64,000 nucleotides of DNA from Tribonema minus (taxonomy: Eukaryota > Sar > Xanthophyceae > Tribonematales > Tribonemataceae), in contig JAFCMP010000024.1 of NCBI GenBank assembly GCA_017506865.1, forward strand, positions 1,178,001-1,242,000. The letters run 5' to 3'. Below, piece by piece: positions 31,070 to 60,400 of this stretch. Under the pieces are notes generated by a model that made no database searches, was not told the DNA's origin, and worked only from the letters and a program-made list of their open reading frames with translations. Position numbers and translations under genes: made by a program. Position 1 is the first letter of the stretch; each line of letters opens with the position of its first letter.

Positions 31070-34000
31070 ATGCCGGTGTTGAGGCCAGAAGACCTCGGTC
31101 CCGACGGGAACCCCATCAGAGCGGACAATGGCAAACCAGCTGTTGCTAATCCAGGAGCACCAGACGCTTATGCTTATGGCTATCCACAGCAGCTGGAAGC
31201 TCCGTACAAGGTGCGCATTACTGTCAATGCTCTTCTGCAGCGATTACTTCATGTTCCTTTTTCTTTTTCCGAAAAAAGCCAAGTCGCGAATTTGAGCTTG
31301 CTAATCGTGCTGTGCGGTGCCTGGCAACATTGTTAGGACGTTCCTGCATTGCGCAACACGTCAAAACTGCTCGGGGCAGCTGAGTGTTGGGCTGTTATAG
31401 CTCCTGCTCTCATTTTCCATGTAAGAACTCCAGTAGTTGCAGCAATGCATTTCTGCGTGGCCTGCAACCATCATGCAACATTGTAGCATTAGATGCGTGA
31501 GCGTAAAGACACCTGTCGCATGCGAAGCCCAGCTCGCATCCCGCACCAGCAGCACTGAAGGGTGCTTGCTGAATGTCGGCGCTAGCATCCTTCACCGCTG
31601 TTCAGACAGTTCCTACATATCATGGCCCGCGACCTTGCGGCGACATAGCAGCATCGTACTGCTGCATGTGACAAGCTATATCATGTGGACTCTATGGTCG
31701 TAATTTGCGCCACGTGGCAGCGCTGGTCGACGTCTGCACGTCGCTCATAGCTCAGACCTGATCGCCTGTGTAGACTGCATGCCATTGGCACAGGGTCAAA
31801 GCTTGGTGTCTGTGTCTGAGCACAGGCGACGTGGCGCATCTGTGAATGTGCGCTGAGGTGCACCGCCAACGCATTTCGGACTGTCCTCTTGCGCCGCTCA
31901 AATCACAGCAGATGCTCGCCCGATGCTAGCACAACGAACCCTGCCGATGGGGGCCCTCACTCGCCTTTCTGAGACTTGCGCAACTAGACTACAGTAGTAC
32001 AAGAAGGCACAGCAACAAGTTACACAGTACGCGCGCCCAGCACCAAACCTCCGCCGCTGGTACAAGAACGCGCAGCAACACACCACATCGCTTACACTCG
32101 GCGCCACACCTGCGCCTGCGCACGCTCCGGGTGATCCCCCCCCTCCCCCCCCCCGTCTCTTTCCCGCGCATGCTTGCTCTGCTCAGGCACAAACCGCTAC
32201 TGTGGCGCCAGCGTATGCGACCCAGGAGTACGCCAACCAGGCGTATGCGGGCACCTACACGCAGGGCGACATAGAGTCGGGCACGGTGCCGCCGCAGAAC
32301 ACGGCAGCCGCGGCCGGCCTCGACCCTGCCATCGCGCGCAAAATACGCCACGGTGAGTGAGTACTGCATGGGGTCAGGATTAGGGTTAGGGTTAGGTTGA
32401 GTGAGCGGACCCGCTCAGTGCGCAGAACATACGGCATGGTGAGTGAGCACTGCATGCGCGCGCGCGCTGGCGTGGTGCTAGGAAGAGGCCGATGGCGCGC
32501 CTGGGACAACAGCAATCGCTACTGCAACAAGCGGACGAGGGTCGTGTAGCTGAAGTCTACTTCAACGGAAGAATGGTTTGCATGCGTACAGCGTACGACG
32601 GCACCACACGCACAGTGCGCCATCTTCATTCTCCTGTGTGCTTGTTTACGGTGTGGTTCAAAACTACTCTTTATTGACCCCCAGATGTTTTTGTCGCACT
32701 CGCTGTTGAGCACTTGTTGCGGAGCACCACCGGGGGCGCTGGCGAATCTGACGACAAGTATTGACACTGAGATTGGCAATGTCGTGGAGTGTTTGAAGAA
32801 ATCACGCTTCTCCAGCCTTTCCAGCGCATCGGACTCATTGGATGTTGTCGCATGTGCTCGCACTTGTCTATGCTGCCACACATCATCAGCATGTCGTCAA
32901 TTCAACCCTCCGCGCTGCGCGTGCTCCCCGCGGCCCCCTCTCTCCCGCGCGGCAGGGTTCCTGCGCAAGGTGTACTGCATACTGATGCTGCAGCTGGCGC
33001 TGACGTGCGGCGTGTGCGCCGTCTTCATGTTTGTCGACCCCGTGCGCAACTACATGCTCGACAACTGGTGGCCGTTCTGGGTCGCCTTCATTGTGTGAGT
33101 GGCCCTGGCCGTGCGCAGTGGTGGTCGGCTTCCAGGGCGCTGCTGCGCGCGACACGGCTTTGTAACTGTCACTTTGTAACTGTTGTTTTGGAAACATCGG
33201 CTGTGGATGAGTAGGACATGCAGGCAGGCGGAGGGGGCTTGCGCACTCTTATTGAGTCATGCTGCAGTTGACCACGGAAGCGAGTGCGCAGGTGCAAGTC
33301 ACAAGCGGTGGTCGTTTTGACCCCCTGTGTCCGATGTGCTTGTTTCAGTACGCTGCTGTCCTTGGCCGAATCAGTGGCTCACAATTCAGTGCGGAATAAA
33401 GAAGGTCTCTCTGGAATTGGGTTACTGATGGGCGGTACAGCGGCTCACAGTGACGGCGTCTTGGTGATTGCGTATTGGTCTGGATCAATCACACGTGTAG
33501 CACTCAATGCATGGCACTATCACATGGCCGAAGGCAGGGTGGTGGTGAGGTTGACACTCAGTCGCTGCCACCAAGTAGCGTAGTGGTGTGTGCCCCCATC
33601 AAGATGTTTTCCATCAGTAAAGTGTACGGTGGCAAGAAGCACTTGTAGTGATCCTGCTCAAACCATGCCGCACTTATTCTGGCCAAGAAAGCCACCCTCT
33701 CGGTTTCACAAGGCACCGTGATTGCATGCGCCACACCCCACACAACGCGTACATCTATGCCACGCGCGCATGACAACATGGCGCAGCAGCAGCGCGCATG
33801 CAGCAGCAAGCTACCATCCGCACCGCCGCACTGTGCGCGTATCGCCACGCAGCGCCACGAAACCGCCTGTTCAAGTTCACGCAACTGCCGCTTTCTCACG
33901 TATCTCGTGCGCCCGCACCCCGCCCGCCGTGCCGCCGCAGCAGCCTGGTCCTCCTGTGCGGGATGTTTGCCAACCGCCACGAAACTGACTGTCGAAGTTT

Positions 34001-37000
34001 GCGCAACTGCCATTTTCTCACGTACTTTTGCGCGTGTCTTTCGCATGCGCCCTGCTTCGCCGCGCCGCAGGGGCCTGGTCCTCCTGTGCGGCATGTTCGC
34101 CAAGCGCAAGTCGCACCCCGCGAACCTCGTGCTGCTCACGGCCTTCACGCTCACGCAGTCGGTGATCGTTGGCACCACGTGCGCCGCGTTCGCCAGCTAC
34201 GACGCGGGGCAGTCGGTCGTCACCGCGCTCTTCATCGTGAGTCAACGCCGCCCGTGCGTGCATGTGTGAAGAAGCGACGCGCAGATGCCGAGCGTAGTGT
34301 ATGAGCGGCGCGCAGGTGCCGAAAGCGGTACATGTATGCACCAGCAGCACGCACCAACAGCTGCAGACTTGGCATGCGGCGCTTGAAGTGTTTGGATCGG
34401 GGTCTCTGTGCGTACTCATGTCACAAAAGTATATGGGTCGTCAAGTCGCAAGTCGTCACCGCGCTCTTCACCGTGAGTCGCCGCCGCCCCGCCGCGCGTG
34501 CCCGCATGTGTGCAGCGCCTGTGCCCGCATGTGTGCAGCGCCTGTGCCCGCTTGTGTGTGAAGGAGCGATGCGCAGATGTGGCACATAGAACACGCAGCA
34601 GCGCGCACTCTCACCTGCAGACGTGGCATGCGGCGCTCGAAGCGTGTAAATTGGGTTCTCTCCGTGTACTCATGTCACGAGAGTACGTTGTCGTCAAGTC
34701 GTGAGTCGAGGTCTTTGTCCGTCCGCCGCGTGCGCGCACCTTTGCAACAGCAGCAGTGCTCGAAAGGACTGCAGTGGTGTGCAAAGCGCGGTTTACAGAT
34801 GCAGTGGGCTGCTGGCCAAATGCTTTGCGCAGAAAGCCTGCAAGCCAAAAGGACAACCGAGTCACTTGCGAAATTCCCCCGTCCTCCCTCCCCCTTTCTC
34901 CGCGCAGACCATGGCTGTCTTTGGTGCCCTGACGCTCTTTACTCTTCAAACAAAGATTGACTTCTCATTCATGGGCGCTGGATTGGGATGTGCGCTCCTG
35001 ATGCTGCTCCTCTGGGGGTGAGTAAATGAGTAGAGTCGGAGTTTCTGTTAGGAGCAGGATCAACGTGCAGGCATTGCATGTACGCATTGCCCGTCTTTTC
35101 CGCTTGCACCTGTCATGGCGTCGTGTGTGCCCCTGTTTGCTCTCCACTGATCGCATGCTGGAAGAACTGCTGTGAGGCAAGCCGTGCCGCAAGGTCGCTT
35201 GTTCTCGCATGAACGAGCGTGAAAAGTCGAAGCTCTGGCAGATGGTCACGAAACACCATGCTTGCGTTCAGCGCATTTTGCATGGCCTTCTCCGTGTTTA
35301 AATGCCCCTGGTCTGCGCTTGAGGATTTGTTGCAGCACATCAGTCGCTCACTATCCTCGCCATGTGGTTGTTGTGCCTACTTGAGCATTGCGCAGCTGTA
35401 CGTCTTGCAACGCAGCATCACCCGCACCACCACCTGAACTTGCAGCTCAAGGCTAAAAGACACTGTACCCCCTGCGCGCGCCGCCGTGCCTGGCGCTGCA
35501 GGCTCATCGCAGCAATCTTTGGGCTTAAAGGGGGTTTTGTTTACGGTGAGTGACTGGCAGTGACGTGTTACTTCTTGTGCTTTGAAATAGATGTACTTTT
35601 TATTCATTCTCGCTCAGGGCGCGAAAAAGCCCAGATGATTGGCATCTAGCTGTAAGGAATCTACATGTCGTATGAGTGTTGTACTTTTTATTAATTCTCG
35701 CTCAGGGCGCAAAAAAGCCCAGATGATTGGCATCTAGCTGTAAAGAATCTACATGTCGTATGACAGTCTGAAAGTGTCGCAACGGCAACCACTCAAACGC
35801 CGCCGCCGCCAAATGGCATCTCGGGGTCCTCCCCTACGTCCTCCTCCATGTGCCCCCCCCCCCCCTGGATTCTGCCATGTGTGTCATGACACGGCCAGAG
35901 TACGCCATGTGGAGCGCTGCCGACAGTGCTTTTACATGGGGATCTGATGGCCGCGACCTCACATGTATGTATCGATCTATACATGAATTACATACGCCTA
36001 TGTAATTGCGCCACGCTCGCATCCCTGCTCTCAACGTGACATGCGAAGCGAACACTCGTTGGCAAGTTTGCCTGCAAGTAAGGCACGCGTTCAACCTTCT
36101 TGAAGAGCACGACTTGCACGACTGGTAGCTCTCTGCATACGAAAATGGCGCAAGTACGTACGCATTGCGTGTGGCAAATCGCTGGTGATATGTTTGCATC
36201 CCACATCTTTCGTAGGTATACATTTAGAAGTATTATAATCAAATGTACACCACATACACAAAGTACATGAACGTCCGCTGCCCACTCCACTGGTATCTCA
36301 TAATGCTCGCTCCTGAGAGCGCTTTGCTTGCCACTGATTAGCCGAGGTAGAATCATGCATACATTAGGCAAAGTACCTCAGGGCTAGTTTTGTCAACGCA
36401 AGCAACGCTGATGTGTCTGCAGTGGGACAGCCCCAGCATTCCGTGTGTTGCGTCTTGTGTTTCTTCCGTTGCAACAATGCTGATCAAAGCATCATTGCTT
36501 GCTTTCAGGATGCCCCTGATGCACAAAGCCGGTGCGGCACTAATGCTGTAGTGTCAATGGCCTTTTCGCGCCTGAAGTTGGCAAAGCGCATGTTGCAGCT
36601 GTGCAGGCTCCGCAGCCCCCATACCTCGAAATACGTTTAAAAGCACCTAACATCTGTGCAATACGCGGTGTTGGTGACTTCTTTGCGCATCTGCAGCGCT
36701 GATTGGCAGCATCATCTTTTCACTGTATATCCTGTACCACACGTCGGTCATCATGCACAAGCTGCCGCCGGATGAGTACATCCTGGCGGTTATCATGCTC
36801 TACCTGGACTTCCTCAACCTCTTCCAGTTCATGTGAGTGCGCCGTTTCGCGAATCTGGTCATGCGCCCTACGCACGCGCTCAAAAGCAGTGGGCATAGTG
36901 AGCTGTGCGGTCAGATGCGGGCGTTTCCTCCTCTCTGAAGGCTGCGTTGCGAGCATTCTACTGTCCAAGGATGCAGCGGCGGAGTAGGTGCCGTGCTCCG

Positions 37001-37593
37001 TCCACAACTTTCCAATTTCATTCAGTTCATGTAGTAGTGCCCAGCCGATCTCTCTCAGTGTATGGGGTATGCTTCAGGGGCAGCGCCGCACAGTGGGACC
37101 AGCTACTCGGATGCAGATATGCATGCAGGGAGTTCCGCACATGGTCGTGGGCAAGCGCGCAGCAAAATGCTCAAGAGGACTTGTTCAGCGCGCGCCGCGC
37201 CGGCAAGTAACGTACAAGGGGTCCTGTACGAAAACTCTGCCACAAACTGAGCATTGCAGTGACCATCTTTAAGGACTCAGCAGCTAGACATGCTGTGTTC
37301 TGCGCCACATCTACCGTGCCCCTGTGCTCCATGAGTGTCCATGCCTGAAGTCAGCCAGGGACTAGGTTTCGGCTACATGCCTACAGGACTAAAGCATCCT
37401 GACAGCGCGCGTGCCATGGCCAGACATTCACCTGTTGAGCCTTGCACTTTGCAGTATGGTTTATGCACTTCGACGCATTCCTTCAGGTGCTACAATTGCG
37501 CCTCTGTGTGTCTGAAGCCATGACCTCTCACGCGACCGCCGCCGCTCGACGCCGTTTTGCCGCCGCAGACTCATGGCGGGCAGCAGCCGCTGA
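31070..37593 (+). CDS. TMBIM/LFG family multi-pass membrane protein B (BAX inhibitor-1-like)
   Basis: Eight exons, all GT-AG and in phase: 31070-31210, 32187-32352, 32956-33094, 34071-34236, 34908-35017, 35502-35545, 36697-36832 and 37569-37593, giving 308 residues. The N-terminal 100 residues are Pro/Ala/Tyr/Gln-rich and hydrophilic (DAYAYGYPQQLEAPY, EYANQAYAGTYTQGDIE), as in animal lifeguard proteins. The membrane region runs GFLRKVYCILMLQLALTCGV, VDPVRNYMLDNWWPF, HPANLVLLTAFTLTQSVIVG, LQTKIDFSFMG and LYHTSVIMHKLPPDEY, and ends NLFQFILMAGSSR. This is the full family architecture, with about seven membrane segments. The family acts in ER/Golgi Ca2+ handling and cell-death control. Compared with paralogue A, exon 3 (139 nt) equals A exons 3+4, exon 5 (110 nt) equals A exons 6+7, and exons 6+7 (180 nt) equal A exon 8. 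Exons 2 and 4 have tandem edge copies in the flanking introns. Confidence 0.9.
32335..32460 (+). repeat. Tandem copy of the TMBIM-B exon 2 3' edge and donor
   Basis: The real edge reads CGCCACG, then GTGAGTGAGTACTGCATG (donor at 32353). A copy 86 bases downstream reads CGGCATG, then GTGAGTGAGCACTGCATG (donor-like GT at 32439), preceded by the related CGCAGAACATA. The copy keeps a strong donor. Confidence 0.7.
32379..32398 (+). repeat. Interstitial telomere-type TTAGGG repeats
   Basis: About three units of TTAGGG, the last one shortened, lie in TMBIM-B intron 2, inside the duplicated unit that carries the exon 2 donor copy. Confidence 0.8.
33815..34110 (+). repeat. Tandem copies of the TMBIM-B exon 4 acceptor and exon start
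   Basis: The real acceptor is at 34069-34070, followed by GGCCTGGTCCTCCTGTGCGG. A copy about 130 bases upstream (AG at 33939-33940) is followed by AGCCTGGTCCTCCTGTGCGG and the same downstream exon words. A third, more decayed copy of the region after the exon start lies near 33830-33900. The intervening CGCAACTGCC ... TTCTCACGTA segment is repeated too, so the unit spans intron end plus exon start. Confidence 0.8.
34205..34720 (+). repeat. Three tandem copies of the TMBIM-B exon 4 3' edge and donor
   Basis: The real edge CACCGCGCTCTTCATC has its donor GTGAGTC at 34237. A second copy, CACCGCGCTCTTCACC with GTGAGTC, has its GT at 34473. A third shortened copy, AAGTC with GTGAGTC, has its GT at 34701. 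Units are about 230 bases and include the shared intron words GCAGATG, GGCATGCGGCGCT and ACTCATGTCAC. Confidence 0.82.
35594..35763 (+). repeat. Near-perfect 88-base tandem repeat in TMBIM-B intron 6
   Basis: TACTTTTTATTCATTCTCGC at 35594 recurs at 35682 with one change in that stretch. About 82 bases match with only a few substitutions, including CCCAGATGATTGGCATCTAG in both. The high identity marks it as young. Confidence 0.88.
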
Positions 37594-39990
37594 TGCGCGT
37601 GCTGCCACTCTCTTGCTGCGCTGCGCGTCAACGCGGTTCTGCAAGCCTCACAAGGACAAGGCGCGGCGCGCACCCCCACAGGGGCCGCTGCTTCCACTGA
37701 CACCAATTTTGCTAGAAAAAGGGCGAGCCTTTCTTTTTTTTCTATACAAAAGTGTGGCATGCTACATGCCGTAATGCGTGGCCAATTTCGCTGCCGCCAG
37801 GTGCGACGGTGTTGCCGAATGCGCGCCTTGCCTCGGTGGCGCACCGAAGGCTCTGCAGAGGCATCTGGTGTTTGCGCTGTGAGCGCGAGCACGCCACGCG
37901 CAAGGATTGTGGGGCCACGTGGCGGTGTGCTGGGTTGAGATTGAGTGCAAGTACCGTGGCACAACGGGGGGCTCGGGGGGGGCACATGCTTGGCTGGGTG
38001 ATCAACGATCACTGCACATCAGGTCACGATAATGTACTGGTGCGCCGGCATTGATGCTGTGTGTCCAATGTCTGCTTGCTGCGGATGATGCCAAGCGCCC
38101 AGCCTGCAGTGCGCTTCGGATCTCTTTTTTAATCGTAGAGATAATCTAGCAGTAGATGCGCGAGGTCCGTTGGCGCTGCACAGCCCCGTGTCGTCCGCAG
38201 ATGCATGCGTCCAACTGGGTGCCCAGATGCTTTGAGAATAAACTCTTCAAAAACACAATTACATGCATTTATAAATATTTGCACTTTAGAAAGAGCATCG
38301 ACCGTGTGTTGGAGGATCGTGTCCACTTTAGGTGCGCGCACACCGAAGCTGCACAAGACGGGGAGGGGGGGGGGGCACAGTGCACCCGCCAAGTGGCACT
38401 GTGCCACTCCAATCCACAGTGCTCCGTTGCAAGATTACTGTACACTTTTGCCATTTTCCTGTGACATTTTGCAAGTTGCAATACACTGTGCAATAGAAGG
38501 TTGTGACCTGCTGCATGGCATCAGCCGTTTACGACGATCGGCACTGCTTCCAGACAACTCTTTTACTGCCGTGCGCACTGCACAGCGCCATCAGGTCGCA
38601 TGTACATTCACACCTCTGCATGGCCTGCCGACTGTGACGTGATGATGTCAGCAGCGCATGCGCAGTGCCGCAGCCCGAAACAGCCCACCAACCGCCAGAA
38701 CTGGCAGGTTCACAATGAGACTCCGCAGCTGTTCAGTTTGAGACCCAACTTATGTCAAATATTCGGATCCTCTCCTGCAGCATTTTCCTTCTCATGTTCT
38801 GGCACCTTCTGGCGTTTGCACTGCACTGCACTGCACGCGGTGCTCACGTTCCTGACACATGTTGAGCGCGAGGTCTGCTGAGCATCCGCCACACCGTCTC
38901 GCAGCAGGCGCAGCTCTCCATGGACTCATTCGTCGCCACACAGTGGAGCGACAGCTGCAGCAAGCTATGCACTTCGAAGTAGGTATTTTGGATGTACGCA
39001 TCGCGATGCACGCTCAACGAGGTATGCATGTATTGTGGATGCACTACGATTGCGCACCCACTGTCAGTGCTCAACTGGTGCGCTCAACTCACGCGGAATC
39101 TTCCCTGCCTGCCCATGCCTGATATAGAACGGCACATTCATTTCAACGGTGGTGCGGGACGGCGGCGGTGGCAGGGCGCAGCTGCGGAGCGCTGCGGCGA
39201 GAATGCCACTGCTCCTCAATGCCGTGCGCTTGCTTCACCTCAAGCTGTCGCGCCTGATGTAGTCAGCCACCGCGGTACACGTGTCTCCCTCGTCGTCCTG
39301 TCGCGCTCGCGCACCGCTCGCCAAACTTTGTCCGGCTCGCGACAAAGCCTAGTAGTGTCCGGCTTGGGGAGGCCCCCAACGCCCGCTGCGAAGCAGCAGG
39401 CTTCCGGGGGGGTCACGGGGGTCACCTAGCATTTCAGGCTGAGTTTCAGGCCAGAGTTCCTTGGCCCCTGGTGGAGCGCCATGACGTAACCTGCGGTGCT
39501 CTGCGCATGGTCCCCGCGCGTTGCGGACGCTCCGCGGCTGCCGCCGCAGAGGCGCTGCCGTCATGAGCGCGGCGAGTCAACTTGAAGTGTGCTGCGGCGC
39601 CGCTAACACACACTGCCGCGCCGTGTGCGCACATGGAGCGCGCAGCACGTGTTTATAACTGTTAGTAGCAGTGTATGTAGATGCGGTACGAAAAGTGCAT
39701 CGCCGTGTAAACTTGTAAAACCTGTAACTGGCGTGTGAAACTGAGTTGACTGGGAGTCATAAGTCAGGACATACACGTCGACAACATCACATCACCGCTG
39801 CTAGCGACTGCGGCAACGCTGTGCGGGTGCGACAACACGCCGCGCGTGCACGACATGTGCTACAGTGGTACAGAGACTGCCATCAATGCGTAGGCTTGAT
39901 AAGTGTGATAACAGTGTCGCTGCCAGACTTGGGGCAACAGGGTCATGATGGTCTGTAGAAAAATGAAGACCTACCAGGGTATGGTGAACT
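37594..39990. other. 2.4-kb gene-poor region
   Basis: It follows the TMBIM-B stop. Open frames are present on both strands in the GC-rich parts (37460-38012 and 39140-39640), but none has a recognisable domain, start context or splice partner. I make no gene call. Confidence 0.4.
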
Positions 39991-40064
39991 TCACACTCAC
40001 AGGAATTGAACCTGCGTCTCCAGCGCATGTCTGCGCTGGTGTGCTTCCATTGCACCACGGTGTG
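39991..40064 (-). tRNA. tRNA-like element, probably degenerate
   Basis: On the minus strand a good A box (TGGTGCAATGG) and B box (GGTTCAATTCC) sit at tRNA spacing. The D arm (GTGC/GCAC) and T arm (GCAGG/CCTGT) pair fully. The acceptor pairs at five of seven positions (5' CACACCG with 3' GAGTGTG). The anticodon arm is abnormal: CCAGC/GCTGG closes a 10-base loop, or a 7-bp stem closes a 6-base loop, with no T at position 33. No anticodon can be read. It may be a tRNA pseudogene, the head of a tRNA-derived SINE, or an unusual gene. Confidence 0.4.
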
Positions 40065-47137: not shown

Positions 47138-50100
47138 CGCTGCGACGCCCACTTGCCGCGCACCACGACCACCGCGCCGCCGCGGGCGGGGAGCACCGTC
47201 TCCAGGTCATCCTGCATTGCGGCGGCACCAAGATCAACATTGCAATCGTGTCAAAGGCCAGACGAAGCAGGCGATGAGCACAGGGTTCACGCCTCATTGC
47301 TGCCGTGATTCAGTGACGGAATACATGCTCACGCAGTCTGCAGACTCGCCTGCCCAACGTCCCGCAGCAGCGCGCCGGAGTCCATGCGCACGTCCGTTAC
47401 GCGCGCGTCGCCGCTGACGTTGAGCGACACGCCCTTCTTGCAGTAGTGCTGCGCGTCTGCGCCCTTCTGCCGCGGCCATGGGGGAGGGGAGGGGGGGGAG
47501 GGGAGGAGGGGAAGGGGGGGCGAAGGGGTGTCAGAAGTACAACTGCGCATGCGCCGCATTGGATCCTGCTGTAAGGGGTGTGTGTGTGTGTGCGCGACGG
47601 AGTGTCAGTAAAACAATTGCGCATGCGCCGCATTGAATGCTGCCGTACTCGGCTGTGGGCGCTACAAGGTATGCACGAGCTTCACGTGGGCTTCAGGTAC
47701 TGGGGCTGGTTCAGCTCGATGCACCAGCGAGTAACCTTCGCCTCAGCGACGCTGTCGTGGCAGCGGCACGCAAGGTGGCCAGCTCCGCTCGCGCCTGCTG
47801 TGCTCAGCTCAGCCTGCAACCCAAGTGATTCCCCTGCAGCGCAACAGGTGAGCGGCCTGGGCACCCCCCCTGCCTGATCAGCTGATCCACCACAACATTG
47901 TGTCCCCAGACCCGGGCACCCAAGCTTAAGCAAGGGGGGGCTGCCCATACCATGTGCTGCCGCGGTGTGCACCGTTTGCGAAGTCCCATGTGTGCGCGTG
48001 GAACGATGAAGGTTCAAAGTTGAAGAACCACATGCGCGTCGGCTGGCCACTTGTCAGATTGCACTTCAAGTGCACGCACCTGAAACTGCCGGCCGACGAG
48101 CCGCACGCGTATCGACTCCAGCAGCCACCCCCCGTGCGCCACGCGCGCCGCCGCCGCAGGCGCTCCGCCGCCGCCGCCGCCGTCGCTGCCCCTGCTCGGC
48201 GACCGACTGTCCCCCCTGCTCCTCTTCTTCTTCTTGTGCTTGTGCTTCTTGTCCTTGGCGTCGGCTGAGGTGTGCTGTTCAGCGCCCCTGTCAGCTGAGC
48301 GTTGGCGCTTCGAGGTAGGCTTGGGCGCGCCCCGTACCACCGTGAAGGGCTTGAGCGCCAGCTCGTCTTCTGGGACCTGGGGGGGGGGGAAGGAGGAGGG
48401 GGGGGGGGGGGTATGTAGGGTACGCAGTCGGTCAGCGCGACACTCCGGGAGGGGGGTGGGGGGCCAGCGGGAGGGTGAGGGGGGTAATTGTCACGTAAGC
48501 TTGTAGCACATGTGTCCAGGCGCTTCTTCAGCAGACAACAATGACCATATGCAGATCAAGTGCAGTCAGTGTGCTGGTGTTTCCAAGGAGTCGTCACTGG
48601 TATACATGATCTGCGCCCTCTTTCGGCGTTGCACGGCGGCGCGCAGCCGCGCATCACCCCGGAACAGGGGCGCTGCGAACGCGCGCATCCTCTGCCTGCG
48701 CGTCTGGTCGTACGGCACACTCTTCGCCACCGCCGCCGCCTGGGCCAATCTTCATTCTGAGCATCATCGCGTGCAGGAGTGCTACTACCTACTGTAGGCA
48801 CGGCGGCTTGCGCGCGCCCCGTGTGCCCGGGGATGGGGCGGGGTGACAGGATGCAACCGCCGTGGGCGCGTGACCGATCAGCTTACCCAGGGATCTGTCT
48901 AAGCCGACAAACTGCGCGGGTTGACGCGCACGATCACCACGGTCGCGCATCCGCGGACTGCACGCAGGCGTATGCATGTAGGTATACGCAGCGATTGCCG
49001 AGAACGCGCACGGACAGACCCCCCGCCCTCTGGCCGCGTCTCGCCCCGCAATTTTCGTGCGCAGCTGAAGCGAGAGCGCGTCTGCTGCTGCTGCCCGTCC
49101 AGCGCGCATAGCATTTGAGTACCGTGTACATATACATACATAATCTGAACACGGCTGCCTCGTTCAGCAGCATCTCCTGTGCGGCTGAACCGAGCGTGAC
49201 CCGCCTGCTGCGAGCTCACCGAGCGCGCAGAGCGACTGACGCACTACCGATCGCTCACGCGTCCCAGACAGCTGCAGCTGAAGCCAGAGCGCACATGCCG
49301 TTCGTCTGGAACATGCGGCGTATGAATGATGCGTACCACTCACCAGTTGCACATCTGTTCTGGCCAGTACAGCAAGCGCGTACTAAGTGCCTGATGCGTC
49401 ACCAGTTATGAACTGCTGCAGCTGAACCCAGAGCGCGTCAGCTGCTCATTGAGCTTGCCTCGTGTGACTAATGCGTACGTACTCACCAGTTGCATGTCCG
49501 TTCTGGACACGGCTTCCTCGGCGCCGCCCTGCTCGAGGCGCACCATTATCTTGCCCAGGCCCGGGACCTGCGTGCACGAGGGTGCCGGGATTACAAAGCG
49601 GTAAGGAAGCGGCTGCAGACGCCAGACATGCTACATAAATGCAGCTGTGACACTGTCAATGTAATCGTCGATAGCTTCTTTCACGAGCAGTGAGCAGGTC
49701 ACAACATGCACGCTCCCCTGCGGCTTGAGCACCGTCGCGCGCCGACGCTTCACGTTCAGACGTGCCTTACTGAAGGTTCATCACCTGTGCAGATATTGTA
49801 CATGAAAGTGCAAGTATAAATGATCACTCACCCCCTGTGTTTTGAGCACCATGGCGCGCCGCCGCGTCGCCGTCAGCTCCACCACCTGGCCGACAGTCAG
49901 CCGCGCCGCGGCAGCGCTCGCCGCCGCCGCCTTGGCCGCCCACGCCGCCTGCAGCATGGAAAAATTCAGGTCGCAATGCGATGAATGGCGCGCTCCAAGA
50001 GCAGAGGATGCGCAGTACACAATACACCCTAGGAGTTCAGCCGCAGTACACAGCTGCGGTGTCACCCCCGCAGCGAAACGTGCGGCGCAGGCGCGCCTCT

Positions 50101-53100
50101 GCTCTCGAAGCGCAAGGCGAAGCAAGCGCGCTGCTGTGAGATCCACGACACGCGCCAGCCTTCCTCAACGTGTGCCAGGGCGACCGCTACCAGTTCCACC
50201 GGCTGCGCCGCTCCAAGCTCTCGCACATGATGGTCAGCGCTGCGCGCTTTCAAACAGCTACTTAGCGCTGCAACACTCACCCGCAGCTCCTCGTCTCTGG
50301 CGTTGGCTTTCTCCCCCGGCTTGCGCTTGCGCGGGCGGTCGCCGTGTTTCTCCTCGGGCGGTTTGGGCGCCGCGCCGAGGCCGAGGCGGTGGTGGCGCGG
50401 CTCAGCAGTGCCCAGCCTGTGGGGGGGGGGGGGGTACAGAGATCAGCACTTGTTTGCGATCAAAAGAATTGAAGTACCTGAAATTGAACAGGAGCAGAAA
50501 GATATGTGTGCCTCACAGGGATGAATTGTGCAAATTTTGCAGCATGTGTATAGGCGCTTGCTGTGTGCGAGTTGCAACATTAGGCACGCAGGACGTGTGA
50601 TTCCAGCATTTGTCACTGAGAATGGCATACGCCGAGAAACTCTGCAGCAGCAGTGTGCTTGCGGGTGAAGCCACCCATACAGGTACTGCAACTCTGACGC
50701 TCACAGGCTTGCCGTCACCCTCGTCTCGGTGCAGCAAGTTTGCAGCACACTTCAAACGACGCTTTCCACTCCATGACACGCACGGCCCTCAATTCTGGTC
50801 TTAGAAGCATGTGCAGCATACTCCAGACAAAGTAGTTCCGCCATGCGCACTTCAAACCAGTAGGTATGCCTGCTAGATACAGTACTCACGGGTTGGCGTC
50901 GCCCTGTTTGTCCTCCGGCGCGGGCCCCGCCCAGCCCATGCCGCAGCATGACCACACAGCACACTTCGGACAAGCATTCCGCCCCCTTCTCAAGCACTCG
51001 CGTGCAGCATACTTCATAGTACCTCATACCAGCATAACCATAAGGCACACTTCAAACGAGCAACCAACTATCTTCAACACTCACGGGTTGGCGTTGCCCT
51101 CTTTGTCCTCCGGCGCGGGCCCCGCCCAGCCCATGCCGCGCAGCAGCGCCGCGCCAAACTCCTCCACCGGCACGTGCCTGCGCCCCAAGCGAGAATGACA
51201 GCACCGCGACTCCGTAAGCTATTTATTGGCGTCGATGTCGGTCTCAAGCGAAAAGGACAGCACCGCAAATCCGTCAAGCGTTGGTCGGCGTCGATGCCAG
51301 CGGGCCGCAGCAACTTGCTTGCCTCTTGTGGCCATTGTAATTAGGTACTTGTTTTAGCCCGCTTCTGTGCGCGGGCGACCACGCAAGCGAAACACCGTAA
51401 GACGTCGCCCTTGACGCCCGCGCCGCTGCTTGTGGAACTGCCGACCTGTCCATGCAGGGTTCGCGTTGAATACACCACTGCGCGCTGAGCAACAGCGACA
51501 GCGCCGCAACTCCGTCAGTTGACTGTCGCCGTCGACGCCAGCGCGCTGCAGCAACTTTATCATTTCCAGTTGCCGTCGTGACAGCATGTTGTACCGCGCT
51601 TCCGTGCGCGGGCGACCATGCAAGCGACACACCTAAGGATGTTGCTCTCGACGTCACGCCGCTCGCTTGCTTGCTCGTGGAACTGCCATTCGACGGCGGT
51701 CGTCATGCTCTACAGTGAAACCCTAAATTAAGCAGGGCAAGCTGCGGTGAATGCTGCAGGGGTGTAGACGGCAATGGTGTTAGGTGTGGAGGGCACGAGG
51801 CCATAACCTACGGTCAATCACTGACAGGCAGACTTTGATGTAGGTCATGCACCACCAGTGCCAATTCAGCAAGCATGCAACACCCAGGACATCGCAGTCA
51901 AGCACAGGCAGTGCATTGTGTACTGTTTCAAACGTTGATGCAAATTTGTCTTAAGCATCACGAGGCACAAATTCATGTATGCGAAAGCATTGATGGCGGT
52001 GCAGAGACTGAGCCATCTGTTGCACTGTATTGGTATTGTCCAGCGGTGTCACATGCCCTGCATAACCTACTTGTCTACCAGAAAGGTGATACATTTACAC
52101 CATAGGCAAATACATGCATATGCATACTACTAGTATACTATAGCCATCCACTGGCAAATATGTGAGCTCCGACAGTTCAGGGGGACATGGTTCAAGGACC
52201 GTATGATGATCATCAACGCTGAAGACTCAGCCTGGTGGCATAACAGCACTCGATGTGCGTTGTCGGTAGGCATTGTATGGACCTATGCATTCGCTACAGA
52301 TGAAACCTGCAGGACGAACGAATTTCAAAGAAGCATTGGTGTTCATAGCTTGCCGGCGCTGGTCATAGGTCTGCTGCGGCCAACCTTCACATCACACGTG
52401 GCAAGACTTGACTTCGTAGGAATACAAATGGTCATAGAACTCATTTGCCAACCCTAGAACTTGAGGACTCTCGAGCAAATTTGCATGTGGTGGCAGCCCA
52501 TCCGGTGATCCTCCTGTAGCTGATTGCCCATGTGGCAACTGCACATGTGCAGTTTGAGGCTCCGCACGTGAAATCACCAGGACCGAATGCATCCTTGGGT
52601 GAAGGAATTCACTGACGAAATCATGTCATCTATGTTGCAATGACTTGCAATGGTTGCAGCTCTTTAATTGGATTGCCTCTCGCGTTCAGCCGCCACCCTC
52701 TGTGCGCGTTGGTCCAGAGAAGCATGTTAACTCTACGCTCGAGCAGCCACGCTGGCACGACCTGCAGTGAGTCGCTGCTCACGTTGCTGTGGTGTCTGTC
52801 GCGCAAGAGCATCAGACTGCCTAGCACGACGCGCAGCGAGACGTTGCTCTGGTATTTCTCGCACAGACCGCCTCGGTCAACAGCAGACCATTGCTCACGT
52901 TGCGCTGTTGTCTCTCACATAGGCTGCCTAGCATGGTCAACAGCAAGCCCGTTCCTCACTCTGCTATTGCGGTGGACACGACTAGCCACTCTTAGCACCT
53001 CTTCGCTTGCGACCTTGCTGCTCTGATGCGACGGCCGATTGAGTGCTACTGCTGCACGCTGCGGCTGCTGTTACTGCTGCCGCCACTCTCGCCGACACTG

Positions 53101-55174
53101 CGCCTGGCCTCGCTCCTTCTTCTTTCTCCGACACTGCGCCCTCGCTCGCGTCGTGTCGTCGCGCTTCAGTTTCGTTTCAAAGTTCATCTTTTTCGCACAG
53201 CACACAGACTTGAACTGTAAACACCATCCCTTAGCCCTCGTACGAAGTAGAAGGCGTGCGCACGGCGCGCGCTCGCTTGCGCTCACTCGCGGACCGTTGA
53301 CGCCCACCGACAATACAGCAACCCTTGAGCCGCCGCATCGTGTGGTCAACTGCAACAGGCGACGCACCTGTACACGTCGCTCTTCGCGTCGATATCGGCG
53401 GCCCTGATGGCCAGGTCGTGCTTGAGCTTAGCGCCGTCGCCGCCCGCCACCTCGTTGAGCCCCGGAATCATCGCCGCCTCCAGGATGCCGCGTTTGCGCG
53501 CACCGGCCGCCTGCTCCGCGGCAACCTACATACATAGATGCATACCCAGCGCACGCACAACAAGACGATGACGCTGTCAGCGCGGCCTGCAGAGCTGACA
53601 GGGTCAGGTGCATCCCTGGGGAAAGTGTATGTACAGGCATGTCCGCCCCAGGCACCAGAAGGAGGTGTCCACACTCACGCTGGACTGGACATGCTGCAGG
53701 CAGTCTCTCAGCGCACAGGCTGCGCCCTCGCGTTGTGGCAGGCGCACCTGCGTCGCGTTGCGGTTGAGCACTTCCTTCTGTCGTCATCTACCGTTTGCGC
53801 CTGCGCAATGCTATCCTGGCACCCATGTGACATCTAGCAAAGCCCATCCACATCAGACCGGTGACCTTCCGCAATCGCTCCTCGCGTGCATCGCATTCGC
53901 AACGTTGGCGTCACATCACAGCCAAAGCGCGGCCGTTCTGCACTTCGGCCGGCGTCCACTGATGCCACGCAACCGTACTGATGCTGCTGATAAAATCTGA
54001 TCAGACAGGCAAGGCACACCATAGTGTCCACCTTCATCGCAATGACTCTGTGGGAGTCAAGACCACGCCATTCACCTTCATCGCAATGACTCCGCTGGGG
54101 TCAAGACCGTACCACGGAGTCAAGACCATACTATTCACCTTCATCGCAATGACGCTGTCGGAGTCAACACCTTGTCACTCACCTTCATCGCAATGACTCG
54201 GTCGGAGTCGAGTCCCAGCCCCGCGTCCGTGCCCCTGCTGTTACGCTGTAACTGCCGCCGCTCCTCGTCCGCCTCCCTCACCAGCTCCTCCGCAGCCAGC
54301 TCATCGAGGCTCTTCTCTTTCGCGCCTGCGAGTGCCATCAACATGTGCAGTGACAAAATTGTGCAGCCTTAAGGCACATAAATCACCATCAACAGCCACA
54401 TCGTCCGCTCTGGCTCATCAATGCCTCCTCCTGACGACCGCGCTGCATAGCTTAGCTTCAGGCAACGCCTGAGCAGCCGCCGCTGCACGGCACGCATTGA
54501 ATGCGGCCCTGCTTGTCAGGCGCTTAGCGACCTGAGCCTACATGGTTGCGTCATCACGTCGGCTTGCCGCTGCTGACGGAAGTGAGGCTCAACCAGTGTC
54601 GCATGACTGCTATGCTTGCTCAACAACGCATGCCATAAAACAACAGTCAAGCTAGCTGCGCACACCCCATTCGTTGACGACGTCGGAGCGAATGCCATCA
54701 TTGTTTATGACACCAGAAACAATCACCGACGTGTGCTACTGCTAGACCATGATTGCATGAGAACGGATTCAAGATGACATGCCTGCTGCGCTCACCTTTG
54801 GGTGCAGAACCGCCGTTTGCCTTGCTGCCTGCGGCACCACCAGCAGCAGCAGCGCCAGCAGCAGCTGTCGCAGGCTCTTCCGCCCAGGCATTGACTGCCA
54901 GAGGGATCACCAGCGGCCCAGCTTTTTGCTGTTCCTCCAAACTTTGCACAGCTCCCTCCGCCAGCGACTCGATGAACTCCTTCTTGGAAGGTGCTGCTTC
55001 GCCGTCGCTGTCGTCGTGGTGATCAATGAGCATCCCAGCTGATGGCCTCGATGTTGGCGCTGCTGTTGCGCTGTTGCGCTTGGCACCTTTCTTGCTCCCA
55101 CCTCCAAGGGACATGCTGAAAGAGGGCTTGCCAGCCTTGGAGTGCCCATTGCTGCTGCTGCTGTGCCAATCCAT
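47138..55174 (-). CDS. GPKOW: GPKOW/MOS2/Spp2-type spliceosomal G-patch and KOW protein (C-terminus not resolved)
   Basis: Eleven phase-consistent exons: 55174-54796, 54325-54183, 53777-53679, 53525-53368, 51177-51085, 50416-50281, 49948-49832, 49567-49487, 48376-48080, 47466-47350 and 47211-47138, about 565 residues so far. The N-terminus has the family motif FSMSLGGGSKK, then KKEFIESLAEG and PLVIPLAVNAWAEE. The G-patch follows as VPVEEFGAALLRGMGWAGPA, with the usual RLGLGAAPKPP after it. KOW1 is LTVGQVVELTATRRRAMVLK with VPGLGKIMVRLEQ. A Lys/Arg-rich linker (KDKKHKHKKKKRSRGDSRS) precedes KOW2: WLLESIRVRLVGRQF, KKGVSLNVSGDARVTDVRMD, then DDLETVLPARGGAVVVVRGK. In yeast, Spp2 activates the helicase Prp2 through its G-patch; GPKOW and MOS2 are the homologues. 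Intron 10 uses a GC donor (CAG/GCGAGT at 47349), chosen because it rejoins the conserved DVGQ-DDLETVLP. Exons 2 and 5 have tandem copies of their donor edges in the next intron. The start is the ATG at 55174; an upstream TTG frame extends it but is not a start. Confidence 0.88.
50883..51160 (-). repeat. Tandem copy of the GPKOW G-patch exon 3' half and donor
   Basis: The exon end (51150-51085: GCATGGGCTGGGCGGGGCCC, ending GCCAACCC before GTGAGTG) is repeated 194 bases further along the intron at about 50955-50888, again ending GCCAACCC before GTGAGTA. The copy keeps the G-patch coding words and a good donor. Some intron words after the donor (ACTTCAAAC, GCAGCATACT) are also shared. Confidence 0.85.
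51186..51640 (-). repeat. Nested tandem repeats in GPKOW intron 4
   Basis: A unit of about 57 bases containing GACAGCACCGC and GGCGTCGATG repeats near 51190 and 51250. A larger unit with AGCAACTT, CCGTGCGCGGGCGACCA-GCAAGCGA and CAACTCCGTCA recurs at about 245-base spacing (near 51300 and 51545). They lie directly upstream of the G-patch exon. Confidence 0.65.
52735..52960. repeat. Tandem repeat of about 90 bases in GPKOW intron 4
   Basis: Three diverged units share GCTCACGTTGC or AGACGTTGCTC, TGTCTCTC-type words and GACTGCCTAGCA or GGCTGCCTAGCA. No coding is visible. Confidence 0.6.
54020..54215 (-). repeat. Four tandem copies of the GPKOW exon 2 3' edge and donor
   Basis: The exon edge GAGTCATTGCGATGAAG next to its donor GTGAGTG (GT at 54182) is followed in the intron by three copies of the same edge, with GT at 54138, 54075 and 54031. 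The copies read GTGAATA, GTGAATG and GTGGACA after the AAG, so the exon words are kept better than the donor. Confidence 0.9.
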
Positions 55175-55434
55175 GTTCGATGCAAATGAATGATCCAATC
55201 AGTGCAACACAGTTGTTAGCAGTGCTTAGCACGCTCCTCCCACGAACAACCGCGCTGCAACGGCCTTGTGAGGATCGGATTTTTGTGCGTTGAAGTTATC
55301 AGCATTGAAGTTATTAACAGTGCCTTCCAGGAATCTGAAAATGTAACGTCGAAAAACGGGAAAGAAAGGCTTCTTTGTTGATTCGGTCGTGTGCTTGACG
55401 CAACGGATGGATCTGCCAGAGGCTGCTGCTCAGG
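55175..55434. promoter_or_regulatory. Divergent intergenic region, probable shared promoter
   Basis: Only 260 bases lie between the GPKOW start (leftward) and the WW-LRR gene start (rightward). A bidirectional promoter is likely. No clear TATA box is visible. Confidence 0.5.
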
Positions 55435-58400
55435 ATGGCCTTGGTGCCGGCTTTGTGGAATGGACAGTACATCATCAAGCAGCTTGATGAGGTGACAGGT
55501 GAGTTGACAAATGTTGCGAATTGCGCACCTCATGCTTCCTGCGCGCGAACACGGGGTCCACAATGCCGCTTGCGCTGCTGCTCTGACAGGCTACTTCTAC
55601 TACACCAACCAGAACACAGGGGAGGTCTACTGGGACAAGCCTGCTGGCGTCGATGTGGTCCTGCGCTCGGCTGAACCGCCGCCAGAGGAGCTGGAGGAGA
55701 AATGCAGGCAAGCCAAAGCCTGTTGCAGCTAGCGATGCGTTGAGTTGAACTGATAATAACAAATAATAACCTGGTTTGCGATGAAAGTGTCTTGTCTCGC
55801 AATATTGCTTCACATTTTATTGGTCAGGGGATAGACACATTGGCGACCTGCGGATGAGTGCCCCTGATGTAGACTGCAGCAAAATCGGCCTGCATTCCTT
55901 ACTGGCTGGTGCATGGCACTGGGTTGCACATTTGAAGCGCGCTCACCCCAGTTGCCTCCCTTGCTGAGCATTGATGGCGCACCGCACACAGTCTCAACGC
56001 CTCCCTCGCCTGCGACAGGCAGCGCGAGCGCGCCGCGGCGGAGCGGAAAGAGCGGCAGGAGCTGATCGAGAAGCAGCTGGCGCTGAGGCGGAAGGCTGCA
56101 GCGGAGAGAGATGCCGCGGCAAACAGTTCTGAGCACGCGCGCGTGGACGAGCTGTGGCGCGTCGCGGAGGAGCATGCTCTGCGCAGGAAGGGGCACTTCA
56201 GCCTGTGCTGGCACAGGTGCGCGCCTCGCGTAGCTCCGTAGCTCCGTTGCTTTCAATTTACAGAAAATTTGAGTCTTTGATTTTGGTTGCTAGGACTGCT
56301 GGGGTATCCAGTCCCATAAGCTGCTTTAGCCTTTCGTCGTGCTGATACCTCATTCCATCGTGCAGAGTCTTGGGATGTAGGTGTAAATGTTTCTTGACAG
56401 TACTCCTGATCTGACACATACCAGCTCCCTTCTTATGCTGATGTTTTCAAGTACTCGACGCACGCAGTATATGTGTGTGTGCGCGATGCGTGACGCGTCC
56501 GGTTCTGTGCTTGCGGACGCCACATGATTTGCGCGTTGGCGGTGCTGTCGTCGCTTCTGAAGTCTTGGAACCTGTGCAAGGCTTAACTGTCCTCCTTCAC
56601 TGACTCTCCTGCTGAGAGCTGTGACGCGCGCCTGTGTCGTGCCGCTGGCTTCTGTGCGCAGTGTGCACGCGGCTGCACTGCTCACGCCCCCCCTTCACGG
56701 CTGCTGGCAGGCACTGCCCCCGGGCATGCGCAAGCACCCCCTGCGGGCCGAGTTCCGCCCTCTGGTCACCCCTTACATGTCTCAGGCCGCCGAGCGCATT
56801 TGCGTCACGACTACTGTAGCGTGAAAATCTCTCCTGGCTGCTGGCTGCTCAGCGCAGCAGAGCCGTCCACCGTTCCCAACCTTGTCTTCACCCACCGCAT
56901 GCGCGCACCACATGCGCCGATCGCGCTGCACTGGTAGCCGTTCGCGCGCCGCTACCTCCGTCATCACGCAGGAGCGCTCAGCCACCACCAGTGCTCAGCG
57001 TCTACCGGTCGCCACATTCTCTCATTCTGTCCCGCACGCGCTCGCGCCAGGCTCGGCGCCGTCTCGCTGCGCCTGTGGACATACCACGCGCGCCGCCCCG
57101 CTGCGCCGCTGCTGGCGTCGATAGCGCTTCGCCATCACCAGCACTCAGCACTCACTGCTCGCCGCATTCTCGCACGCGCGCGCGCGCCAGGCTCGGCGCC
57201 GTCTCGCCGCGCCTGTGGACGTACCACGAGCGCCACGGCCCCGCCGCGCCGCCGCTGGTGTCCATAGCGCTGGTGGGCCAGGCGCTCGAGCGCGTGCCGC
57301 CGGAGCTGGTGTCGGGCCGGCACGCAGTGGCAGCGCTCACCAGCCTGAGCCTCGCGGCGAACGCGCTCACGGCGCTGCCGGACGAGATCTGCGGCTTGGC
57401 GGCGCTGCGCGAGCTCAACCTGCTGGGGAACGCGCTGCGGGAGCTGCCGGCGCGCATAGGTCGGTGCCGCGCTGCCGGTCCTAGTGGCAGTTGTACTTGC
57501 CAATGCGCCTTCTGCTTGGCGCGTAGGTCAGCGCGCACTGTTGCTGGGGTAGACTGCGCAGGGGCGGTCGGCTGTGGCTTCCGCAGTTCTGCAGACAAAG
57601 GCTTGGGGGCGCGAGGCTGTGCTGGAGAGTGCGCTGCTGGAGCTGCCGGCGCGCATAGGTCGGTGCCGTGTCGCCGGCTCATGTGACAGGCACACAGCGT
57701 CTGGCTAGCGCACCGAGCGCTGACATTTGGCCTTCGCTGGGTGCTCCACCGCAGCTGCCCAAAGCAGAGCATCGACAGTCCGCACGCAGCGTTGAGCGTC
57801 CATGCGCAGCAGCAGGTCAGCGCAGCACACGCTGCTTGCGTGCGCCCTTGCACCGTGCCCCACTGGCAAAGCTGCGTGCTGGCAGTCCGCGCGCGCCACC
57901 AGCCTGACGTCCGTACTACTCAGGGGTGGCGCGCGGCTGGTCACAGACCTCCTTCCCCGCATCCCTCACTGCAGAACACTAACCGCTGTTCATCATCCCT
58001 CCGCAGCACAGTGGGGCTACATGCGGCAGGGAAGCCGATCTGCTTATTCAAACGGCTGCTGCTGCAGCGCACCCACAATTCACACCGGGCATCCACATAC
58101 CCCCCCCCCCCCGCCAGGCCTATAGTGCCCAAGGACTGACACTGTGCACATGCATATGCCACCCCCCCCATCCCTCCATCCCCCCAGGCGCCCTGGCGCA
58201 GCTGCGCAGGCTCGAGCTCGCCGGCAACAAGCTGGAGGCGCTGCCGCCGAGCTTTGGCAACCTGACGCGGCTCAAGCGCATAGTGCTCGACTGCAACCGC
58301 CTGCGCGCGCTGCCCGAGACGCTCGGCACGCTGCGCTGCACACACCTCAGCCTCAACTTCAACAGGTATTTGCTTCTCACTTGAAGCGGGAGCAGCACAG

Positions 58401-60400
58401 CAGCGGCTATGGGCGCTGGCACGCGCGCGGCGGGGGATACTCTCAATAGTAGCGATTGAAGTTTATTTGAAGTCTCATTTGAAGTAGGGGAGGTCAGGCG
58501 GCGTGGGTGCTGGCATGCGTGTGGCGGCGGCACGTTTGAATAGAAGGCAGTGGGTCATTTGAAGTAGCGTCCGAGCAAGAACTTCAAGGCAGGGGCAGCC
58601 ACAGCTCCAGCAACATCGGCCTCTGACCCCGCGAAATGCTGTGCTATCGCTCCGCACTCTGCGTCACATGCTGCAGCCTGAATGTGGCGGTCATCCTGTC
58701 TGTTGCTGCACCGTATGGTCAGGCAACACAGATCAGATCCTCCGGAAACCTAAACCCTGCGTGCACATGTGCCCGTTTTTGCCCTGATACGTGCCTGGAA
58801 CGTCAGCTCCATTTCCGAGCACTGCCATTTTCAAGAGCTGCCGTACCTGAGTGCTGCCGCTGGAGAGCGCCACCGACGCGCCGGCTGCTGCGAGGGCATC
58901 ACGCGCCGGCACCCACCCGCCGCCAACACACTCAGAAACTAGGCACTCCTGCCATTTCCAGCGCACTGCTGGCACACGCGTGCCTGAGTGCTGCCGCTGC
59001 TGCGTGTCGATGACGTGTCGTGCTCCGGCTTGCACACGTCGTGCACCCGGTCGTCCTCGGCGACACCCTTCCGCTCTTGCGCTCGTCATGACACGATACA
59101 GCAGCGACCTCATCAACCTGAACATGCGTCTTCAGCAGCTGAACGGACGACCGCCGTGCGCGGCGCGCGCCGCGGCGCTTCCGCAGGCTGGGCGCGCTGC
59201 TGTGCCACGCCAAGGACGCCAACACACACATTTCCGAGTGCTAGCACTTCTGGGGGCCGCTGACGCGTTCCGCTCCAGCCTGCACAATGCTACATTCGAT
59301 CATCCTCGCCGAAAGCGATTTTGTTCTCGCAGTCGTCACAAGTTGACGGCGACCCTGATACCCACTTCTCGCATCGCGCAACATCAGAGCGTACGCACGC
59401 CGCGCCGCGCCGCTCCCGCACGCAGGCTCGGCGCGCTGCCGCGCTGCGTCAAGGACATGCCGCGGCTGCGCACGCTGCGCATCGACGGCAACGGCCTGCG
59501 CGCGCTGCCGCGCGCGATCGCCGCGTCGCCGAGAATAGTGTTGTTCTCGCAGTCATCGCAAGCTGACAGCGATCCCGATACTCAGTACGTGCGCCGCGAC
59601 ACTTCTGCGCGCAGGCTCGGCGCGCTGCCGCGCTGCGTCAAGGACATGCCGCGATTGCGCGCGCTGCGCGTCGACGGCAACGGCCTGCGCGCGCTGCCGG
59701 GCGAGATCGGCGCGGCGCCGCGCCTCGCGACGCTGAGCGCGTGCGGCAACCGCATCACGCAGCTGCCCGACTCGCTGTGCGCGCTCGCGGCGCTGCGGCG
59801 CCTGTGGCTCGACCACAACTTCCTCGCGAGCCTGCCAAGCGACTTTCACCGCCTCGAGGCGCTCGAGGAGCTGCGGCTCGAGGTGAGAGCGATCGATTGA
59901 GCGCTGCTGCTGCTTGTTTGCGTGGCGCCGGTTGGCGTGCGTCTGTGGGGCGGCAGCGCGCCGCGCGTGTGCCCAGACAGACGGCTGCAACGTGGCGGTT
60001 GTAGAGAAGGCCGGGGGGTGTCAGCGAAGGGGGCGTCGCGCGCCCCACCGTGCTTATGCGCCAGTCTGGGACGAACGTGCAGTCTATGTCAGCTTTGATG
60101 GAAGTGCACGCAAACATGCAAAATTGAATGCTTCATCGTCGTTTCCCGAGCGCCCGCGTCCGCGCGTCACCAGGTGACGCTCCGCACAATGTCAGCGCTC
60201 AACCTTTTCATCGCTCATCGACGTTACGCGTGCCGCTTGCCGCCGCCGCCGCCGCCGCCGCGCAGGGCAACCGGCACATGGTGTACCCGGGACCGGAGAC
60301 GGTGGCGGCCGGCGTCGCCGCTGTGCGCGCGTGGTGCCGGCGCCGCTTCAACGACCGCGTCCATGCGAGGCGCCACACCATCGTGCTCACCGTGCAGGTG

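Follow-up and report, generated by a model that had tools for sequence, protein, structure and literature searches.

Introners, or introner-like elements, are dispersed related sequences through which one kind of event strikes many introns of one genome. In whole-exon tandem duplication, as in mutually exclusive exons, exon sequence is repeated in the neighbouring intron. Minisatellites and the short tandem duplications that follow paired nicks or end joining are local repeats in direct orientation, tens to hundreds of nucleotides (nt) long, and are not known to prefer exon 3' ends; the titles and opening lines of abstracts found by searching the open-licence literature contained no report of such a preference. 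New introns can also form by local tandem duplication (Hellsten et al. 2011, as cited in PMC3443670 and PMC4974935). In the potato RdRp gene, according to PMC4974935, one tandem duplication spanning intron-exon structure created a new intron whose splicing signals came from the parental structure. Here, the copying of exon edges into adjacent introns was analysed in Tribonema minus. The analysis included a 64,000-nt window of contig JAFCMP010000024.1 (hereafter C24, positions 1178001-1242000), for which such copies had been described from the sequence alone at eight exon edges in three unrelated genes, TMBIM-B, GPKOW and WW-LRR (the original prediction).

Copies of exon edges in adjacent introns

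The source assembly comprises 158.18 Mb in 554 contigs, and the spliced genes of the window mark it as eukaryotic. The sample consisted of the window, 40 kb from each of the contigs C1-C5, and the 50 kb to the left and 30 kb to the right of the window, in total 344 kb or 0.22% of one genome; the earlier counts were made on the first 314 kb, without the 30 kb on the right. Only predicted, confident internal exons were used, as defined by a codon model together with a strong acceptor and a strong donor, which gave 172 called exons in 314 kb and 187 in 344 kb. The caller recovered most exons of TMBIM-B and GPKOW, as well as 16 exons of a methionine synthase gene on C2, the domains of which were confirmed by Pfam. 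Among the best 120 of 7997 matches of a methionine synthase fragment, mostly nameless entries, the named eukaryotes included the diatoms Conticribra and Seminavis (65%), Symbiodinium (64%) and Aureococcus (57% and 49%). It also made errors: WW-LRR exon 5 was put on the wrong strand, and an intronic copy was merged into WW-LRR exon 7. De novo gene models built by dynamic programming were dropped, as they predicted too many exons or took antisense frames. Between consecutive called exons of the same strand lay 123 candidate introns, 117 of them at least 300 nt long. For the main measure, the 50 nt of exon at an edge were compared with the intron within 400 nt, and a match score of at least 36 was required.

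The last 50 nt of the preceding exon were copied in 27/117 introns and the first 50 nt of the following exon in 10/117, with both copied in four. When the whole intron was taken as the target, the counts were 29/117 and 10/117, and those for the reverse complement were 1 and 0. In swapped introns, taken from another contig, no copies of exon ends (0/117) or exon starts (0/117) were found. The end of the preceding exon was likewise absent from the next intron of the same gene (0/84) and from its own intron after shuffling (0/117). These values suggest that the end of the preceding exon is copied in about a quarter of the examined introns and the start of the following exon in fewer, an unusual and apparently function-free reshaping of introns. 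Inside the 27-kb interval of the original prediction, three donor cases and one acceptor case were found in 11 introns, compared with 24/106 and 9/106 outside it. The density that had been regarded as exceptional was therefore ordinary for the sample, and the region is a single instance of a state that extends across the genome.

A scan of 80-nt windows centred on splice junctions found that 58/338 were matched across the junction within the following 600 nt of intron (score at least 36). The same test gave 109/2083 for noncoding windows near exons and 17/198 for exon middles, and with shuffled targets 0/338 for junctions and 0/2083 for noncoding windows. Local pairs within 4 kb in the 314 kb, some of which were repeats inside exons, were direct in 265 cases and inverted in 7. 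In the 344 kb, 117 repeat clusters covered 12.5% of bases, and the quartiles of their best-pair offsets were 99, 150 and 195 nt. The direct orientation and the short distance were those of local tandem duplication.

To locate the copied part of the exon, 40-nt windows were compared with the intron at increasing distance from the edge. For the exon 3' end and the downstream intron, windows ending 0, 20, 40, 60 and 80 nt inside the exon matched in 27, 20, 9, 7 and 4 of 130 cases, and those ending 100 and 120 nt inside in 0/110 and 2/96. The same steps from the exon 5' end into the upstream intron gave 15, 12, 5, 5 and 4 of 130, then 3/110 and 2/96. Counts on the wrong side were 1, 2, 3, 2 and 3 of 130, 6/110 and 9/96 in the first edge series and 0, 1, 1, 2 and 8 of 130, 7/110 and 10/96 in the second, climbing where the window approached the opposite exon edge. 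The terminal 60 nt of the exon were the main source of the copies, most of which extended to the splice site, with a falloff within about 60-80 nt of the edge.

As with introners, many introns of one genome were affected by one kind of event; unlike introners, the copies formed no sequence family, each matching only its neighbouring exon, as the swapped-intron and next-intron comparisons showed. One edge pattern was searched across the whole assembly and was found at two places, both at the same locus in the window. The repetition of exon sequence in the adjoining intron recalls whole-exon tandem duplication; however, the copies covered the exon edge, with none of 110 at 100-140 nt from the 3' end, and offered no open alternative exon. 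A few short called exons fell entirely inside copies. With minisatellites and short tandem duplications the copies share their direct, local nature and their length of tens to hundreds of nt. The resemblance to new-intron formation (Hellsten et al. 2011, as outlined in PMC3443670 and PMC4974935) lies in the involvement of exon sequence and splice sites, tolerated because splicing hides the duplication; the difference is that existing edges were copied here inside existing introns. The duplicated unit joined intron and exon and inherited splicing signals, as described for potato RdRp in PMC4974935. Unlike that single event, the events here were numerous and spread over many introns, chiefly at donors, and gave no sign of new introns: the start of the intron resembled the start of the next exon in 0/117 introns, and the end of the intron resembled the end of the previous exon in 0/117. 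The copies were classed as local tandem duplication in a variant form, distinguished by its concentration at exon 3' ends. Judged by titles and the beginnings of abstracts, no report of exon-end copies in introns was found in the open-licence literature.

Protein repeats in the exons of C3-C5 were considered as a cause and set aside, as 22 versus 8 of 99 introns still carried donor and acceptor copies without C3 and C5. The exon repeats on these contigs were ankyrin-like (two large arrays), MORN-like and others, named from reading the translations. Tandem arrays within exons, with units of 102 to 157 nt, were located at about 8117-9046 of C3, 20266-21547 of C4 and 28177-29348 of C5 (joined stretches).

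Exon edges compared with intron interiors

On the donor side, copies were found for 27/106 exon 3' ends and for 7/156 interior windows (4/86 and 3/70). On the acceptor side, they were found for 11/106 exon 5' ends and for 11/159 interior windows (6/88 and 5/71). The excess over interiors was four- to sixfold on the donor side, depending on the baseline, and 1.5- to 1.8-fold on the acceptor side. Among 3402 noncoding windows far from called exons, 2.7% had a copy. Donor and acceptor copies also differed within the same introns (McNemar p = 0.0023 for all 117 introns), with p values of 0.0025 in phase-compatible introns, 0.0041 outside the interval of the original prediction and 0.0043 without C3 and C5. 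The proposal that exon edges are copied more often than the interiors of introns was borne out; that the excess is mainly a donor-side one is a feature absent from the original prediction.

Edges could also stand out if local duplication were uniform, since a conserved copy would remain recognisable for longer, in-exon duplications would be purged, and the comparison introns might contain exons that were overlooked or have a higher rate of evolution than assumed. This possibility is rather unlikely, although part of the data agrees with it. In edge-crossing pairs, the identity was 91.8% in the exonic part and 81.7% in the intronic part, and the exonic part was the higher in 25/27 alignments; because the exon is constrained, its part is better conserved, and edges are therefore easier to detect. 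Uniform tandem duplication was simulated with substitution, insertions/deletions (indels) and deletions beside a constrained exon. In four settings, the edge frequencies were 0.110, 0.096, 0.084 and 0.047, and the interior frequencies, in the same order, were 0.100-0.109, 0.110-0.126, 0.097-0.098 and 0.057-0.074. The edge/interior ratio was thus 0.6 to 1.1, so that edges were not enriched in any setting; the observed acceptor side roughly matched this result, and the donor excess did not.

Of 63 intron arrays, 28 crossed the donor, 14 the acceptor, one both and 20 neither, which makes 43 edge-crossing arrays. Random placement without a detectability weight gave 21.9 (standard deviation 3.3) of 63, a null that is too simple, and a twofold weight, our own estimate, narrowed the gap to about 32 expected against the 43 observed. 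Intron-only windows, in which exon conservation cannot aid detection, had a copy further into the intron in 11.3% of cases near edges and 4.8% in interiors (88 paired introns), and 0/20000 sign flips gave an excess as large. This approximately twofold difference and the disparity, within single introns, between donor and acceptor edges both argue against uniform duplication. Local duplication placed regardless of gene structure failed to account for the edge excess, mainly that on the donor side.

The best explanation, held with roughly even confidence, is that local direct duplication leaves decaying relics and, through mutation or retention, is concentrated at the 3' ends of exons. Direct local duplication in steps of about 70 to 340 nt would be frequent in the genome, and it would be most frequent, or most often retained, across the exon 3' end and donor, with the copy landing in the intron downstream. 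Because splicing would go on using the exon-proximal donor, the protein would be unchanged and the copy free to decay. A copy of the exon 5' edge would sit upstream of the true acceptor and, being likelier to be used by mistake, would be retained less often. The excess is probably at least partly mutational, and the order of the splice sites would explain the difference between donor and acceptor sides. If the donor-side excess is mutational, gene structure or splicing would be linked to where DNA duplicates, and introns would gain ready-made second splice sites. From such sites introns could grow, splice sites could shift and new introns could arise, and several stages of decay are visible in one genome. 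Constraint acts on the exon but not on its intronic copy; every array therefore has a built-in clock, by which duplication and decay rates in introns can be measured.

Decay of the copies and their possible function

At 44 junctions, the mismatch between exon and copy was 0.078, 0.054 and 0.173 at codon positions 1, 2 and 3, where about 0.09, about 0.09 and up to 0.17 are expected for an unconstrained copy beside a constrained exon. The value at position 3 equalled the two-lineage value of intronic pairs (0.173). At the 21 edges with two or more copies, the exon differed from all copies at 2, 1 and 17 sites of codon positions 1, 2 and 3. In all, 53 donor and 16 acceptor copies were found. Among those reaching the junction, the GT was intact in 36/43 and the AG in 13/16, close to the 83% expected in the absence of selection and showing no conservation beyond neutral. 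The copies decay near neutrally and are best read as relics. Translation of the copies as exons had been suspected from the third-position excess and was rejected, the excess being largely explained by constraint on the exon only.

Several observations weigh against concentrated tandem duplication at exon 3' ends followed by neutral decay. On reversed C2 and C24, the exon caller still found 21 exons, compared with 97 on the real sequence, from which perhaps one fifth of the called exons may be false. The copying of exon 3' ends was uneven among contigs (10/16 introns on C2, 6/18 on C1, 6/7 on C5, 1/10 on C3 and 9/59 on C24), and C24 alone had no significant donor bias (6 versus 3 of 64, p = 0.51). 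Intron-only windows near donors were not significantly richer in copies than those near acceptors (13/106 versus 9/97, 14/112 versus 8/109 and 13/105 versus 7/101). The mismatch at codon position 2 was under the neutral value, and positions 1 and 2 were both below the one-lineage 0.09, on a neutral yardstick built only from alignable intron flanks. Changes private to one copy at the 21 multi-copy edges numbered 44, 32 and 64 by codon position, an uneven distribution (p = 0.0037). The third-position surplus could come from staggered copying off an exon that was itself changing at third positions, and there may be weak constraint on some copies. Lastly, 12/27 donor cases had no homology past the splice site (z of 2 or less), where plain tandem duplication predicts otherwise.

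These flankless cases would fit donor-anchored copying, in which the exon end and donor serve as the template in a repair or a transcription/splicing intermediate and are laid down nearby in the intron. Their exonic divergence resembled that of the clear tandem cases: 0.052, 0.073 and 0.163 by codon position in the 16 cases with z of 4 or less, and 0.052, 0.059 and 0.173 in the 11 clear ones. The exonic extents clustered at about 45 nt (43 copies), and the donor bias agrees with such a process. It is nevertheless improbable. In 11/27 donor cases, clear tandem units with homologous intron flanks were seen (z above 4); the array at 37328 of C1 can be read as tandem duplication plus deletions, and in the remaining cases tandem units may be masked by large indels. 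If breaks were filled by templated insertion, inverted copies would also be expected, of which 1/117 was observed, and the exonic breakpoint had no consistent bases. A specific form is conceivable, though similarly doubtful: copying linked to transcription or splicing would start at donors, take about 45 nt of exon end with a variable length of intron and deposit them on the downstream side within a few hundred nt; introns would thus keep accumulating relics of the preceding exon.

Function as alternative splice sites, with copies kept to compete with the true site, to back it up or to make destroyed transcripts as a means of regulation, is very unlikely. The retained GT and AG dinucleotides, the low mismatch at codon position 2, and the sequence AGGT in 19/36 intact donor copies, in principle both acceptor and donor, could all be taken as signs of it. 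However, the survival of the splice sites equals the expectation without selection, the distances showed no bias towards multiples of three (13, 8 and 15 for remainders 0, 1 and 2), and single copies were often changed at codon positions 1 and 2. Use of the copied donor would leave the frame open in 1/36 cases and meet a stop in 35/36, the caller being biased against open ones. The baseline of open frames at the same distances was 616/3190 in introns without donor copies and 59/1042 in introns with them. The closed donor-to-copy frames were discarded as a signal of their own, since they are probably an artefact of the exon caller extending exons through open copies. Net intron expansion was also rejected, the median length being 757 nt in 33 introns with copies and 810 nt in 84 without (p = 0.92). 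Of the interpretations offered in the original prediction, edge copying that is real and recurs in unrelated genes was thus retained, while a regulated system of competing splice sites and net lengthening of introns were not.

Copied edges and other features of the window

The original prediction gave no coordinates for individual edges, and its exon numbers were assigned to positions in this analysis. The gene names were partly backed by Pfam (Bax1-I in TMBIM-B, G-patch_2 in GPKOW and leucine-rich repeats in WW-LRR). Direct repeats joining exon edge, splice site and intron, as had been described, were present at 8/8 matched edges. Strict self-comparison of the window gave 17 local repeat pairs, covering seven of the eight; the eighth, the TMBIM-B donor after 32352, was found only at a looser cut-off. 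Two GPKOW donors beyond the eight, at 49486 and 49831, were copied too. The repeats, in window coordinates, were as follows.

32334-32370, plus strand: TMBIM-B, end of the first called exon (donor after 32352) and intron start, source of the copy (self-comparison, looser cut-off)
32420-32456, plus strand: TMBIM-B, copy of this exon end and donor, offset 86 nt (37 columns, 84%)
33853-33977, plus strand: TMBIM-B, intronic copy of intron end and exon start (source 33975-34107, exon start 34071; 74%)
34216-34455, plus strand: TMBIM-B, exon end (donor after 34236) and intron start, unit 1 of a tandem pair (strict self-comparison)
34452-34708, plus strand: TMBIM-B, unit 2 of this pair, offset 236 nt (70%; exonic bases 20/21 identical)
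35592-35763, plus strand: TMBIM-B, young tandem pair of an 88-nt unit inside the intron, crossing no exon edge (96%)
49268-49509, minus strand: GPKOW, exon end and donor at 49486 (source 49412-49509, copy 49268-49366; 75%)
49715-49759, minus strand: GPKOW, copied exon end belonging to the donor at 49831, with the GT no longer intact (located by means of the offset; 35/45 exonic bases)
50884-50944, minus strand: GPKOW, copy of the end and donor of exon 51085-51177 (source 51079-51139; 97%)
51256-51669, minus strand: GPKOW, repeat pair classed as intron-internal (51256-51432 and 51497-51669; 74%)
54018-54215, minus strand: GPKOW, array in which the end and donor of exon 54183-54325 are repeated (82-89%)
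56973-57271, plus strand: WW-LRR, exon 5 start and upstream intron, two units (56973-57128 and 57123-57271; 78%)
57421-57677, plus strand: WW-LRR, exon 5 end and donor (57421-57478) with copy (57620-57677; 88%)
59164-59720, plus strand: WW-LRR, exon 7 start and upstream intron, up to three units (59164, 59402 and 59591; self-comparison)

The intron flank of the GPKOW copy at 50884-50944 was weakly similar to that of its source (z 2.4). The WW-LRR exon 7 pair 59402-59531 and 59591-59720 was 90% identical, and a further piece (59164-59217 and 59588-59645) was 78% identical. Assembly error or mis-joined reads, which had been named as the finding's possible undoing, have a negligible probability, and no observation pointed to them. 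The copies were mostly diverged, with graded ages, and came from six contigs; since nearly all listed pairs were 67-98% identical rather than identical, such error cannot be the general cause.

Within 59426-59882, an intronic copy, the spacer behind it and WW-LRR exon 7 share one open frame (the offset of 189 nt is divisible by three), which is why the exon caller took one unit into the exon. The copy could add a protein repeat if its acceptor were used; the leucine-rich pattern was regular from the later acceptor. As copies keep exon words and splice sites, they can be called as exons during annotation, of which this segment is an example. A weak copy of a further TMBIM-B exon end (36815-36850, donor after 36832) was seen by eye only at about 37005-37040, some 200 nt downstream. 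A second TMBIM gene occupies 22816-25458 on the minus strand and, unlike TMBIM-B, had no local repeat pair in the strict self-comparison. Its exons, from the exon caller, were as follows.

22816-22995, minus strand: called exon of the second TMBIM gene
24724-24889, minus strand: called exon of the second TMBIM gene
25334-25458, minus strand: called exon of the second TMBIM gene

Interstitial TTAGGG tracts were present at 32379-32397, beside the first TMBIM-B copy, and at 37 loci in the 344-kb sample, where the sequence TTAGGGTTAGGG occurred at 25 places on both strands. Repeat clusters, with the coverage given above, contained 31/129 TTAGGG words. The tracts were considered as scars of break repair; their flanks were duplicated at 6/37 loci compared with 138/1720 random sites, which was too weak to use. 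In an Rfam scan of the window, no family reached the threshold. A tRNA-like gene with an unusual anticodon reading was noted at 39991-40064 on the minus strand, and a single long exon of 2970 nt, scored by the caller as very strongly coding, at 1212-4181, also on the minus strand.

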